A DNA stretch of 64,000 bases from Bacteroidota bacterium (GTDB lineage Bacteria > Bacteroidota > Bacteroidia > Flavobacteriales_D > Sanyastnellaceae), in contig JAQCBJ010000006.1 in NCBI GenBank assembly GCA_027621555.1, positions 1 to 64,000 of the forward strand, written 5' to 3'. Both the position numbers and the translations under genes were made by a program. Below the pieces are notes generated by a model. That model searched no databases, was not told the origin of the DNA, and was given only the letters and a program-made list of their open reading frames with translations. Positions within the stretch are counted from its first letter, which is position 1. The number at the start of each line of letters is the position of its first letter. Below are positions 54,373-59,401 of this stretch, one piece after another.

Positions 54373-54408
54373 GCAAAAGAGCCCGCACTGCGGGCTCTTT
54401 TGCATTTC
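54373..54408 (+). terminator. Intrinsic terminator
   Basis: A perfect 14-base stem GCAAAAGAGCCCGC with the loop ACT, ending the transcript of the choice-of-anchor protein. Confidence 0.88.
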
Positions 54409-54485: not shown

Positions 54486-54501
54486 TGTGATGCAGGTCAC
54501 A
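54486..54501 (+). promoter_or_regulatory. CRP/FNR-type operator TGTGA-N6-TCACA
   Basis: A perfect palindrome TGTGATGCAGGTCACA, preceded by AAA. It matches the CRP-family consensus and lies 57 bases before the FIST-gene ATG, an activator-like position. The regulator itself is not in the window. Confidence 0.6.
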
Positions 54502-54557
54502 ATCGAAGCACTACGCTCGCACGACATTGACGTTCTGATCCTCACAACACTTTCCCC

Positions 54558-55742
54558 ATGCTTCAATTTTCTTCCTACAGCACCCGATTGGTGAACACGC
54601 GTCGTGGCGTCCTGGAGTGCCTCGAATCGGCCCTCGGCGACGACCTCGACAGCGCCAGCTTGTTGATTTGGCACGCCTCCATCGGGCACGATTTCCAAGA
54701 CTTGGTCGATGCGTCACGCGAACATGCACCCAACTCCCGGGTGGTGGCCACGTCGTGCTGCGGCGTCGTCGGATGCGAAGGGGTGAGCGAGTCCATGAAA
54801 GACATCGCGCTCATGGCGGTGAAGGGAGATGAATTTGCCGTGGCGTCGTGCGACGGGTTCTTTGGCCACAATGCGTACGAGAAATCGATCCAGTTGGCGC
54901 GCGACCTCAAGGCGCAGCAGCCCGGTGTGAACATGGTGTACTTCTTGGGGTCGGGCATCGACACGGCCAACGACCAAGCGATTCGGGCCTTTGAAGAGGT
55001 TCTCGGCAAGGACGTGACCATCTTTGGCGCGACGTCTTCCGACAACATGAAGGGGCTCGTGAACTACCAGGCCGTGGACGGCAAGGTGACGGAGCACGGC
55101 GCATACGCCGTGGGGTTCGCGGATCCGACGCTCAAGGTGGAAACGCAGGCCACGCACGGTTTCGTGGCCGTGGGCGAGCCCCTCGTCGTGACCAAATCCA
55201 CGGGCGAAGTCATCCACGAATTCAACGGCAAGCCCGCGTGGGAAGAGTACACGCGGCGACTGGGTTTGGACGAGTCGGCCGAATGCGGCGACACCATCCC
55301 CATCGGAGCGCTTGGCGAAAAATTGTCGCCTGAACTCGCCGAGGAATACGGCAACGACCACATCCTCCGCGTGGTGACCAAGCACAACGGAAACGCCATG
55401 CACTACGCGACGCAGGTGGCGGAAGGCACCGAGCTGTGGCTGACGACCCGCGACGAACCGCTCATCTTCAGCGAGATGGACCGCATCGTCGAGGAGATCA
55501 AGGGCCGTATGGGCGGCAAGGAGGCCGTCGCGGTCTTCCACGCCGACTGCCTCGCGCGCGGTCGGTTCTTGTTCAACCGCATCATCAAGGAAGAGCTCGT
55601 GGGCAAGATGCAGTTCCCGTTTTACGTGGACGGTGCGTGCCCACCGTGGTTGGGGATGTACGGGTTTGGGGAATTTGCTCGCCTCGGTGGGGAAAACGAA
55701 TACCACAACTACACGACGGCGTTGTACGTGATTTACCGTTGA
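54558..55742 (+). CDS. FIST-domain sensor protein (NosP-like candidate)
   Basis: A 394-residue cytosolic protein with FIST N-terminal (about 20-220) and FIST_C (about 225-375) regions. Typical phrases are ATSCCGVVGCEGVSESMKDI, TIFGATSSDNM and the FIST_C end AVAVFHADCLARGRFLF. FIST proteins are small-molecule sensors. One subclass, NosP, is a heme protein that senses nitric oxide and is encoded beside its histidine kinase. The histidine-kinase gene follows here after 25 bases. Heme binding cannot be judged by eye. A CRP/FNR-type site lies upstream. Confidence 0.85.
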   Translation: MLQFSSYSTRLVNTRRGVLECLESALGDDLDSASLLIWHASIGHDFQDLVDASREHAPNSRVVATSCCGVVGCEGVSESMKDIALMAVKGDEFAVASCDGFFGHNAYEKSIQLARDLKAQQPGVNMVYFLGSGIDTANDQAIRAFEEVLGKDVTIFGATSSDNMKGLVNYQAVDGKVTEHGAYAVGFADPTLKVETQATHGFVAVGEPLVVTKSTGEVIHEFNGKPAWEEYTRRLGLDESAECGDTIPIGALGEKLSPELAEEYGNDHILRVVTKHNGNAMHYATQVAEGTELWLTTRDEPLIFSEMDRIVEEIKGRMGGKEAVAVFHADCLARGRFLFNRIIKEELVGKMQFPFYVDGACPPWLGMYGFGEFARLGGENEYHNYTTALYVIYR

Positions 55743-55753
55743 ACGAGGAGCGA

Positions 55754-55761
55754 TAGATTTG
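55754..55761 (+). promoter_or_regulatory. Possible internal promoter box before the histidine kinase
   Basis: TAGATTTG is a perfect TAnnTTTG match, six bases before a GTG start codon at 55768. It may allow kinase expression independent of the FIST gene. Confidence 0.45.
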
Positions 55762-55767
55762 GTGTTC

Positions 55768-57432
55768 GTGCCCCAAAACCTCAGCAACGAAGAGCTGCTT
55801 CAGGCCTACCTCGACCTGCAAGCGCGCGTGACCCAGTTCTCATCGATAGAGCAGGAGCTGATCAACATGCGCGACACCCTCGACCAGGAGCTCGAGGTGT
55901 ACAAGCGCATGAACGACTTTCACGCGGAGGCGTTGGAGGTGGGCGACGTGCCAGAGCTGCTGACGTTGACGGCGGAGTACGTGGTCGACTTGTTCGAATG
56001 CGAGATGGGTTACGCTCGGGTGTCGGACGTGCAATCCAACACCCTGGTGGCAGACCACCTCGAGGGCGGGCAACGCAACCTTGCCGACCGCCATGTTAGC
56101 GGGTTTCGGGCGGTGCGGGCGGGGACAGACGGAGCCACGCCCTTCGCATGGCACGAGGCCGCCGAACGCCGTCAGCCCCAGTCCTCGCTGACCCTGACTG
56201 TGGTGGCCGCCGTTTCCGAAGTCCGAGCCGGGACCTACACGCCGTTCTCGGCGAAGAAGGCGGCCTTGTTCCGTCTGTTTGTCGAGTCGTGCGCCCCTTA
56301 CGTGGAGAACATCCACGCCACTGCCCAAATCCAGCATCAGCTCGAGACCATTCGCAAGTCTGAACTCGAGCAACGCCGGCTGTCGCTCATCGCCACCACC
56401 ACGCACAGCGGGGTGATCATTGCCGACCCGCACGGCCACATCCAGTGGGTCAACGACGCGTTCACCGCCAACACCGGTTACGCCCTCGACGACGTGCTTG
56501 GCTTGAAACCCAAGGACTTCCTGCAGGCCCCAGGGTTGAACGACGTGGAAACCCTGCGCAACCTTTCCCGCGCCCTGGCGGCCCATGAAAACGTCAGCGT
56601 GGACCTCAAGAACCTGCGGAAAAATGGGGAGCCGTTCTACATCCGCCTCAACGTGACGCCGGTGTTTGACCCGGAGCAGCGTTTGGTCAATTTCATTGGC
56701 ATCCAGCAGGACATCACGGAGGGGAAGGTGAACCAGGAGCAGCTTCAAGCCCAAAACGAGGAACTCACCAAAATCAACCAGGAACTCGACCAATTCGTCT
56801 ACAGCATTTCCCACGATTTGCGCGCCCCGCTGCTGTCCATCCAAGGGCTGCTCGACCTCATCGACCTCGACGCCGGGCAAGAGGGAAACGCCGTGTACCT
56901 CAAGATGATCGCCGAAAGCGTCAGCCGGTTGGACCACACGATTTTGGAGATTTTGAATTACTCCAGGAACGCGCGCCTCGACGTGCATCCCGTGGAATTC
57001 AACTTCCGCACCTACGTGAACGATTTGGTGGCGGACCTCAGCAACCTGCGTCCCGACATCGCCGTGCGGGTGGACTGGACGGGCGAGGAAGTGGTTCGCC
57101 TCGACGAGGTTCGGGTGGGCGTGCTTTTGAAAAACATCGTGTCCAACGCGCTGAAGTACAGCAAGCAAGGCCAGGAGGGAGGCGAGGTGGTCCTCGCCGT
57201 GCAGGTGGAACAGGACAGGTGTTCCGTGCGGGTCTCGGACAACGGCATGGGCATCGGGCAGGAGCACCTCGACAAGGTGTTTGACATGTTCTACCGGGCG
57301 ACGCAGCGAGGCGCGGGAACGGGTTTGGGCTTGTACATCTGCAAGGAAATCGTGGACAAATTGAACGGCACACTCTCCCTCCACTCTACCTTGGGAGAAG
57401 GAACCGTGGTCGAATTCACCTTGCCCCAATGA
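55768..57432 (+). CDS. Cytosolic PAS histidine kinase
   Basis: A 554-residue protein with no membrane segment. In order it has a coiled coil (about 10-45), a GAF-like region (about 50-190), a PAS domain (about 215-320, IIADPHGHIQWVNDAF ... IGIQQDITE), a HisKA box SISHDLRAPL (His349) and an ATPase domain with NIVSNALKYS, SDNGMGIG and GTGLGLYICKE. The likely partner input is the FIST protein just upstream, and the receivers downstream are likely outputs. The start is uncertain: TTG 55759, GTG 55762 or GTG 55768. I prefer GTG 55768 because it lies just after the promoter box. Confidence 0.9.
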   Translation: MPQNLSNEELLQAYLDLQARVTQFSSIEQELINMRDTLDQELEVYKRMNDFHAEALEVGDVPELLTLTAEYVVDLFECEMGYARVSDVQSNTLVADHLEGGQRNLADRHVSGFRAVRAGTDGATPFAWHEAAERRQPQSSLTLTVVAAVSEVRAGTYTPFSAKKAALFRLFVESCAPYVENIHATAQIQHQLETIRKSELEQRRLSLIATTTHSGVIIADPHGHIQWVNDAFTANTGYALDDVLGLKPKDFLQAPGLNDVETLRNLSRALAAHENVSVDLKNLRKNGEPFYIRLNVTPVFDPEQRLVNFIGIQQDITEGKVNQEQLQAQNEELTKINQELDQFVYSISHDLRAPLLSIQGLLDLIDLDAGQEGNAVYLKMIAESVSRLDHTILEILNYSRNARLDVHPVEFNFRTYVNDLVADLSNLRPDIAVRVDWTGEEVVRLDEVRVGVLLKNIVSNALKYSKQGQEGGEVVLAVQVEQDRCSVRVSDNGMGIGQEHLDKVFDMFYRATQRGAGTGLGLYICKEIVDKLNGTLSLHSTLGEGTVVEFTLPQ

Positions 57433-57830
57433 GTGCGATGCCGAACTATTTGCTCATCGACGACGACGACATCATCCAGTTCGTCCACAAGAACATTCTC
57501 GCGAAGGCGCATCCCAACGCGCACGTGACGGCCGTGTTCTCCGGGGCGGAAGCGTTGGCTTTCTTGGTGGATTGTGGGGACGAAGAATGGCCGCAGATGG
57601 TGTTCCTCGACATCAACATGCCCATGCAGAGCGGGTTTGAATTCCTCGACGGTCTCAAAGAGGCGCACCCTGATCTTCACGCCAAATTGGTGACGCAAAG
57701 CCGGCTGTTTTTGCTCACGTCTTCCGTCAATCCGAGGGACGTCGCCGAGGCTGAGGCCCACGGCGAAATTGAAAGGTTGCTTTCCAAACCGTTGACGGTC
57801 CAGACCGTGGAAGACCTTGAAAAAGGTTGA
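57429..57830 (+). CDS. Single-domain response regulator 1
   Basis: A 133-residue receiver domain only. The acidic pocket DDDD (11-14), phosphorylation site FLDINMP (Asp61), switch residue Thr97 and Lys120 are all present. It overlaps the kinase stop by four bases, so it is the direct phosphotransfer partner. It is a Rcp1-like stand-alone receiver, often found with PAS/GAF kinases. No output domain is present. Confidence 0.92.
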   Translation: MSAMPNYLLIDDDDIIQFVHKNILAKAHPNAHVTAVFSGAEALAFLVDCGDEEWPQMVFLDINMPMQSGFEFLDGLKEAHPDLHAKLVTQSRLFLLTSSVNPRDVAEAEAHGEIERLLSKPLTVQTVEDLEKG

Positions 57831-57862
57831 CTCGGGAGTGGAATCCGAGCTATCTTCAGTCC

Positions 57863-58159
57863 ATGCAACTTCCCGACGTCGTCAAAGGCATGTGCCAAAT
57901 CGCGGAACTCGATTTGAAAGAGGTTCCCATGATTCGTTTCCGAAAGGGGACGGGGAAACAGGACATCTATGTCGAGCTCCGTTCGAAGAAGAAGAAAGTC
58001 CGTGCCTACTACAACGCCGAGAAGGGGGTCATCAACGAGATCGACATCCGCGAAGCGCATGAACGCACGGATTCCAGTCGGCTCCTCGACGTGGCGAATC
58101 AATTGGCGAAAGAGAAGTCCTCCATGGACGCGTTCCGCCTTGGATTGATGGACGATTAA
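57863..58159 (+). CDS. Small unknown protein between two receivers
   Basis: A 98-residue basic protein (VKGMCQIAELDLKEVPMIRF, RSKKKKVRAYYNAEKGVINE) with no domain I recognise. The ATG at 57863 is used; a TTG at 57827 overlapping the preceding stop would add 12 residues. It is part of the FIST-kinase-receiver run and may be an adaptor, but nothing in the sequence says what it binds. Confidence 0.6.
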   Translation: MQLPDVVKGMCQIAELDLKEVPMIRFRKGTGKQDIYVELRSKKKKVRAYYNAEKGVINEIDIREAHERTDSSRLLDVANQLAKEKSSMDAFRLGLMDD

Positions 58160-58176
58160 TCGAGACGAAGAATCAC

Positions 58177-58719
58177 ATGGAACCCCCACAAGCCCCACGC
58201 CCCTCCGTTTTGTACGTCGACGACGAGTTGGCCAACCTGACCGCTTTTCGCGCGGCGTTTCGAAAGGACTTTGACGTGCACGTCGCGCATTCCCCGGAGG
58301 AGGCGGTCGAGCAGTTAAATTCGTTTCGCGTGGACGTCATGATCACGGACCAGCGCATGCCTGGCATGACGGGGATTGATTTGGTCCGGGCGACCAAGGA
58401 GTCGCACCCCGAGGTGGTGAAGATGATTTTGACGGGATTCGCCGATCACGACGTGGTCATGGATGCCCTGAACGAAGGGTTGGTGTTTCGCTTTTTTGAA
58501 AAGCCTTGGAGCCGCCAAGTCATTTCGCGTGACGTTTGGAAAGCGTTCGAATTGCTCGAGACGTATCGCCAGCGGAAGAAGCAGCTGCTCGAGATGCGGG
58601 CGAACCTCGAACGTGGCGTGGAGAGCGTCAACGAGCTTTTGGGGCACCTCACCTTGCAGCAAGATTCCTTGGGGTTGGGCTTGGCCAAGGAGCTTCAAGA
58701 GATTTTGGGTGGACACTAA
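58177..58719 (+). CDS. Response regulator 2 with coiled-coil tail
   Basis: A 180-residue protein with a receiver domain (VLYVDDE at 11-17, phosphorylation site TDQRMPGMTG with Asp58, Thr86, Lys109). A helical tail of about 60 residues (LLETYRQRKKQLLEMRANL) replaces a DNA-binding domain. It is likely to be phosphorylated by the same kinase. Output must be by protein-protein contact. Confidence 0.88.
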   Translation: MEPPQAPRPSVLYVDDELANLTAFRAAFRKDFDVHVAHSPEEAVEQLNSFRVDVMITDQRMPGMTGIDLVRATKESHPEVVKMILTGFADHDVVMDALNEGLVFRFFEKPWSRQVISRDVWKAFELLETYRQRKKQLLEMRANLERGVESVNELLGHLTLQQDSLGLGLAKELQEILGGH

Positions 58720-58750
58720 GCGTCGAAAGAAAATGTCGGGTTGGAGTTCT

Positions 58751-58763
58751 TGACTGTCAGTCA
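58751..58763 (+). promoter_or_regulatory. Inverted repeat upstream of the Lrp-type gene
   Basis: TGACTG-T-CAGTCA is a perfect six-base inverted repeat about 80 bases before the regulator ATG. It could be its own operator. Confidence 0.3.
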
Positions 58764-58808
58764 GGTGTCGTTTTGCAGAAGGTTTGTTCGGAACGGCCGC
58801 CGCAGCCT

Positions 58809-58816
58809 TATCTTAG
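58809..58816 (+). promoter_or_regulatory. Possible -7 box of the Lrp-type gene
   Basis: TATCTTAG is one base off TAnnTTTG, with TTTG 22 bases upstream (58783-58786). The start codon is 27 bases downstream. Confidence 0.3.
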
Positions 58817-58843
58817 TCAAGAGAAAGTGAGACCTGAGGACCC

Positions 58844-59401
58844 ATGCCACAACGAGCGAAAAAGAAGGGGCTTGACCAAATCGACGTGACCATCCTGGAA
58901 ACCCTCCAAGAGGACGCGTCGCTGACCAACCAAGCCATTGGAGAACGAGTGGGGCTGACGCCCGGGCCGACCCACTCGCGAATCAAGCGATTGAAGGAAG
59001 AGGGGATTGTGCGCGGCATCCATGCCGATTTGGATTGGAATGGCCTGGGCTACGAATTTTTCGCATCGGTGGACATCAAGGTGCAAGAAGAACGCGCGGA
59101 CGAGGCCGAAGGATGGTTGGCGCGCATCCCCAACGTCTGGAACCTCTGCCGGTTGAAGGATCCCGAGTCGAATGGGGAAGTGGTGTTTAGGTTTTGGTCG
59201 GTGAGTGATTGCCGCGAGACCTTCCTCACCATTTGCCATTCCATGTTGACGATGTTTGATGGATTCACCGACGTCCAAATCCAAGAGGTCGACTGGATCG
59301 CACGGAAATCGGCCATCGTCAAGGTGGGCCGTGTGGCGCTGGGAACCGAGGCCTTCAAGGCTTGGGACCCTCAAGATGTGGACCTCGAATCCGAGGACTG
59401 A
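58844..59401 (+). CDS. Lrp/AsnC family transcriptional regulator
   Basis: A 185-residue regulator with an N-terminal winged helix-turn-helix (about 8-60, DQIDVTILETLQEDASLTNQ ... THSRIKRLKEEGIV) and an AsnC-like ligand/dimer domain. It is longer than the usual 150-160 residues at the C-terminus. The target and ligand are unknown. It follows the signalling genes by 124 bases and has its own promoter-like box, so it may be separate. Confidence 0.88.
   Translation: MPQRAKKKGLDQIDVTILETLQEDASLTNQAIGERVGLTPGPTHSRIKRLKEEGIVRGIHADLDWNGLGYEFFASVDIKVQEERADEAEGWLARIPNVWNLCRLKDPESNGEVVFRFWSVSDCRETFLTICHSMLTMFDGFTDVQIQEVDWIARKSAIVKVGRVALGTEAFKAWDPQDVDLESED

Follow-up and report, generated by a model that had tools for sequence, protein, structure and literature searches.

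Does the group of five genes described here form a single nitric oxide-sensing system, and if not, what is the conserved unit, and what might it sense? The genes lie in the window, by which we mean the whole 64,000-nucleotide stretch of Bacteroidota DNA that was analyzed, and they encode a FIST protein, a PAS-containing histidine kinase, a receiver (RR1), a 98-residue protein (SM), and a second receiver (RR2). To our knowledge, most FIST proteins have no known ligand. The original prediction, made from the sequence alone, described the five genes as a likely system of the type built around the nitric oxide sensor NosP. Our analysis corrects this five-gene unit to three plus two: judged by sequence, it is a Bacteroidota FIST-kinase-receiver cassette, distinct from NosP, that carries a genus-specific two-gene extension.

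All five reading frames are open and lie on the forward strand within positions 54558 to 58719, and the intergenic gaps from FIST through RR2 are 16, −4, 32, and 17 bp (Table 1). Third-position GC is 0.72 to 0.83 in every gene, and each of the five has orthologues elsewhere. A transmembrane segment is not expected in any of the five proteins (maximum 19-residue hydropathy, ≤1.33), and Pfam detected no DNA-binding or cyclic-di-GMP domain in any of them, as had been predicted. The predicted parts list (a FIST protein, a membrane-free PAS kinase, an overlapping receiver, a 98-residue orphan, and a second receiver with a tail, all on one strand) was likewise correct by open reading frames, Pfam, and hydropathy. 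The kinase was described accurately as soluble and PAS containing, but roughly 200 residues ahead of the PAS, to which Pfam assigns no name, had been overlooked. At position 54486, the predicted start of the feature, a TGTGA-N6-TCACA palindrome begins; FIST itself starts at 54558.

Table 1. Features of the FIST locus and its flanks (positions in the window)
Feature	Position	Strand	Evidence and remarks
Hairpin resembling a terminator (14-pair stem), downstream of the LVIVD-repeat gene that precedes the unit; putative upstream edge	54373..54403	+	Pattern match only; such sites at chance level in the region
Perfect palindrome TGTGA-N6-TCACA, similar to a CRP/FNR-type operator, 56 bp ahead of the FIST start codon	54486..54501	+	
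FIST protein, 394 aa (FIST N, 35-225; FIST C, 227-375; invariant Cys331 and Glu372)	54558..55742	+	Pfam, alignments, AlphaFold2 model
Cytosolic histidine kinase (PAS_9, HisKA, HATPase_c)	55759..57432	+	Pfam; start probably GTG at 55768
Kinase N-terminal segment, residues 8-60, proposed FIST-docking helix, motif LQ.RVT.FS..EQELIN.RD.LD.EL	55780..55938	+	Identity to relatives, co-occurrence with FIST
Receiver RR1, stand-alone, 133 aa; partner in the conserved cassette; 4-bp overlap with kinase gene	57429..57830	+	Pfam, neighbor genes in relatives, tree
SM, 98 aa, no known family, genus restricted; ATG at 57863	57863..58159	+	Pfam/NCBIfam, family genome search
Receiver RR2, 180 aa, helical C-terminal tail; close orthologue genus restricted	58177..58719	+	Pfam/NCBIfam, family genome search
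Lrp/AsnC-type regulator gene, 124 bp past RR2	58844-59401		

Among 84,980 species genomes, we found 28 loci with relatives of the window FIST, 25 of which encode a full-length orthologue (69 to 81% identity to the window FIST). The order FIST-kinase-RR1 recurs in 22 of the 28 loci, across Bacteroidota, and several of the others are interrupted by contig ends. SM is present in none of the 28, and the 22 loci with the three-gene order also have no close RR2. When the 114 genomes of the family were searched, SM was found in the window genome and three congeners only. In those three, RR2 (69 to 72% identity) adjoins SM, and the pair is followed by the same Lrp-type, VanY-type peptidase, and thioredoxin reductase genes; a window-type FIST had no match in these three genomes, two of which are 92 to 94% complete. 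By gene order, the locus resolves into two modules, FIST-kinase-RR1, shared in Bacteroidota, and SM-RR2, a separate genus-level pair. What ties SM-RR2 to the cassette is its position in the window genome, together with RR1 in one congener (G078). There, in a genome without FIST or the kinase, the receiver ahead of SM groups with RR1 of the window and of the nearest FIST loci (support, 97/93). Because this genome keeps an RR1 orthologue ahead of SM, FIST-kinase was probably ancestral to the group and then lost, or else RR1-SM-RR2 was retained as a unit. One integrated five-gene system, with SM and RR2 obligate, would account for that arrangement and for the tight spacing of the window genes, but the 22 loci with neither SM nor a close RR2 and the SM-RR2 pairs in FIST-less congeners make such a system quite unlikely. 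Thus, the predicted conservation of gene order holds for the first three genes and fails for the last two.

The two-receiver output had been considered unusual. It is present here; however, RR2 paralogues at approximately 45% identity occur in 98 of the 114 family genomes, and another contig of the same genome (C66; L069, 1630 to 4800) carries a 728-residue kinase followed by an RR2-like and then an RR1-like receiver. An output through two receivers is therefore not special to FIST. Neither RR1 nor RR2 has a further Pfam domain, and neither has a cyclic-di-GMP or Hpt output domain. Neither Pfam nor NCBIfam gave SM a family match that reached or approached its cutoff, and the single-sequence model of SM (pLDDT, 70) gave no Foldseek match at an E value of 0.001 or better (best Z score, 5.9).

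The kinase consists of an N-terminal helical segment (residues 8 to 60), a region that is inferred to be GAF-like (residues 61 to 185), a PAS domain (residues 218 to 321) that is LOV-like in sequence but without the flavin cysteine, a HisKA domain (residues 343 to 404; 42.2 bits), and a HATPase domain (residues 449 to 556; 93.7 bits). The parts of a HisKA two-component system are all present: the phospho-acceptor His352, which lies in the motif SHDLRAP, the HATPase, and two receivers, both over cutoff, with the acidic pocket, Asp, and Lys. In relatives, the first residue of the kinase aligns with the GTG at 55768, not with the TTG at 55759. All FIST-paired kinases open with one segment (consensus, LQLRVTRFSxxEQELINTRDRLDQEL), and mean identity between the window kinase and 25 relatives is 60% over residues 8 to 60, compared to 19% over the GAF-like region and 45% over DHp plus CA. 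The N-terminal 200 residues match exactly 15 of the 114 family genomes, which are those with a FIST orthologue, and the two genes are always adjacent; in a phylum-wide sample, the region occurs in the same 2 of 395 genomes as FIST. The chance of a 15/15 match is 5e-19 under independence, a value that is far too small given shared ancestry and adjacency. As a conserved, noncatalytic segment that occurs only where FIST does, residues 8 to 60 are best read as a candidate FIST docking site, with the caveat that coinheritance of adjacent genes would also yield 15/15 and that related genomes are not independent. Comparison of this region to NahK-type kinases detected no kinship (hhalign probability, 0.2%). 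FIST-paired kinases range from 432 to 1,157 residues because the number of PAS modules varies, up to several; in the two shortest (432 to 434 residues), which are still paired with FIST, the N-terminal region runs directly into HisKA without a PAS.

The window FIST is a true FIST-domain protein, with Pfam matches to FIST N (4.9e-26; 92.2 bits against a gathering threshold of 23.2) and FIST C (1e-11; 45.5 bits against 28.5), and no other gene of the FIST-kinase-RR1 cassette is as well conserved. Its score against the NCBIfam NosP model (NF041558) is 37.8 bits (1.2e-9), 12-fold short of the cutoff of 450, whereas an annotated NosP from Azospirillum, used as a positive control, scored 487.7. The original prediction proposed comparing the FIST protein with NosP in search of a conserved heme-ligating histidine. 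We compared histidines by sequence alignment, using those common to seven NosP or NosP-like plasmid proteins: at the four corresponding columns (201, 269, 362, and 382), none of the 27 family members has a His, and the positions hold G, I/L, P, and Y/F. Window-type FISTs have invariant or near-invariant histidines of their own (H44, H180, H200, H268, H328, and H383), and three invariant ones (residues 200, 268, and 383) are each one residue from a NosP His, where an alignment shift is possible; a shifted heme site at the family's own histidines is possible as well. By score and alignment, the window FIST is not a NosP, and the NosP-type label holds for the layout only. That layout, a FIST gene beside its own soluble histidine kinase and a receiver partner, is shared with NosP-NahK of Pseudomonas aeruginosa and Legionella and with NosP-NosK-NosR of Burkholderia pseudomallei. 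Those systems differ from the window in the sensor and the kinase N terminus, as described above, and in their output, which is a cyclic-di-GMP enzyme or a hybrid kinase with an Hpt domain rather than a bare receiver.

An AlphaFold2 model of the window FIST (pLDDT, 88; pTM, 0.90) most resembles the FIST domain of human FBXO22 (Z score, ~22), followed by chorismatase and cyanuric acid hydrolase (Z scores, 12 to 16), enzymes of the Toblerone fold that share the three-repeat architecture at 8 to 13% identity. The link between the FBXO22 fold and these enzymes has already been reported (PMC11185555). A search of solved structures with the single FIST sequence gave no match, and one with a broad FIST profile gave FBXO22 only, at an E value of 0.09, which we accept because the fold search finds FBXO22 independently. 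FBXO22 is the F-box substrate receptor of a ubiquitin ligase, has no kinase, and is 14% identical to the window protein. Seven positions (G69, G157, A227, G290, C331, G366, and E372) are invariant in 25 diverse FIST proteins, so that Cys331 and Glu372 are the sole invariant reactive side chains of this alignment; neither residue varies in any of the FIST proteins that we aligned. In the profile comparison, they fall on Cys326 and Glu362 of FBXO22 (full-length chain, numbered 308 to 365 over this stretch). Aldehydes bind FBXO22 covalently at Cys326 as a hemithioacetal, and the E362A mutation abolishes activity (PMC13316043). The literature that we searched holds no earlier report linking the bacterial FIST Cys-Glu pair to FBXO22, which does not prove that none exists. 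Two stretches of the window FIST, residues 163 to 166 and 335 to 341, are modeled with pLDDT below 50, yet their sequence conservation is among the highest in the protein; the ligand site probably comprises the Cys331-Glu372 pair and these neighboring loops.

Gene order, one-to-one pairing of FIST and kinase, intact kinase and receiver sites, and the lack of a membrane segment can be read from the sequences themselves. We favor, with somewhat better than even confidence, a model in which FIST-kinase-RR1 is a conserved cytosolic cassette. FIST would be a detachable sensor that docks on the conserved N-terminal helical segment of the kinase; binding of a small molecule to FIST, be it nitric oxide, a reactive carbonyl, or something else, would be relayed by the variable GAF-like and PAS modules to alter autophosphorylation of the kinase; and phosphate would pass from the kinase to RR1. 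In the genus of the window, SM-RR2 would be an operon extension that probably adds an output by protein contact, which we propose because no gene of the unit has a DNA-binding or cyclic-di-GMP domain. A precedent for control by docking is NosP-NosK of B. pseudomallei, in which the FIST protein binds the kinase and controls its autophosphorylation (PMC12570481).

Two candidates for the small molecule that would act on FIST were weighed. The NosP-like model of the original prediction, in which nitric oxide binds heme on FIST and thereby switches the kinase, draws on the shared layout, the distant yet significant similarity to the NosP model, and the six conserved histidines that could ligate heme. 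In addition, the best NCBIfam match of RR2 is the NosR receiver (4.4e-33), though the receiver type is generic, and in one locus (L015:6675-7214) an H-NOX gene (2.9e-48), followed by one for a GAF/PAS protein, directly follows the window-type FIST-kinase pair in the place of RR1. The window genome also encodes an H-NOX with its own kinase on another contig (C3; L126), a separate candidate gas sensor; such systems resemble the cassette in placing a separate cytosolic sensor protein beside a kinase, but the sensor fold is unrelated and the kinase is separate. However, an H-NOX gene lies near FIST in only 1 of 28 loci, and its co-occurrence with FIST is not significant (4/15 versus 12/99 family genomes; P = 0.22). 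NosZ, NorB, and NnrS were not found over cutoff in any of the 15 genomes with a window-type FIST, which speaks against a denitrification setting. With the NosP cutoff missed and the NosP histidines replaced, we regard nitric oxide as a possible but doubtful ligand.

Rather unlikely, in our estimate, is a reactive carbonyl or other electrophile, which would form a reversible adduct with a Cys331 activated by Glu372 and so alter the contact between FIST and kinase. Beyond the invariant pair and its alignment with FBXO22, this possibility gains from a gene of a relative (L029:1021-3354) that encodes a FIST joined to an old-yellow-enzyme (NADH:flavin oxidoreductase) domain. The locus of this gene also has a kinase gene, a gene for a receiver-SpoIIE phosphatase protein, and two further genes for FIST proteins. 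Members of the old-yellow-enzyme family catalyze the reduction of enals and enones. NosP-like FIST genes have aldehyde or PQQ alcohol dehydrogenase genes as neighbors in 6 of the 7 plasmid loci that were inspected, a small and related sample, and in Pseudomonas nosP is located within the ped/exa alcohol-aldehyde cluster (PMC12997753). Conversely, the neighbors of window-type FIST loci vary from clade to clade, and no alcohol or aldehyde oxidation gene was recognized among them; the FBXO22 chemistry was observed with synthetic degraders; and the Cys-Glu pair may be structural. The remaining weight falls on some other ligand. It could also be that the PAS of the kinase is the real sensor and FIST merely a scaffold, consistent with the PAS found in most of these kinases and with the FIST domain of FBXO22, a protein-binding module without an obvious ligand pocket (PMC11185555). 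The two short FIST-paired kinases without a PAS and the strong conservation of FIST render this the least probable of the readings considered.

For the favored cassette model, this FIST family offers a clean test case, with a near-fixed sensor (~75% identity), a one-to-one kinase, and a proposed docking segment visible in sequence. The Cys-Glu pair common to FBXO22 supplies a residue-level hypothesis for FIST sensing in bacteria and possibly in people. A broader conjecture, which we hold to be improbable, is that FIST domains generally are covalent sensors of small electrophiles such as aldehydes, through a reversible reaction of the invariant Cys activated by the invariant Glu, and that in Bacteroidota the signal would reach a dedicated cytosolic kinase via the FIST-specific N-terminal helix. 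If true, NosP would be recast, given its place in alcohol-aldehyde oxidation clusters.

Upstream of the cassette, the palindrome was considered as a conserved CRP/FNR-type operator and rejected, as it is absent ahead of other FIST genes. The genome holds two exact copies, compared to one for the reversed-pattern control, and the second copy sits inside a receiver gene. Terminator and promoter scans of the region returned matches at chance level. Sites resembling TGAC-N4-6-ATCA lie approximately 100 bp ahead of FIST in three loci of one clade (L009, L010, and L018). With regard to base composition, GC is 0.53 to 0.57 in RR1, SM, RR2, and the Lrp-type gene (57429 to 59401), compared to 0.61 in FIST and the kinase. 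Between 50001 and 52000, where no long gene was called, GC falls to 0.51, compared to approximately 0.60 over the rest of the window.
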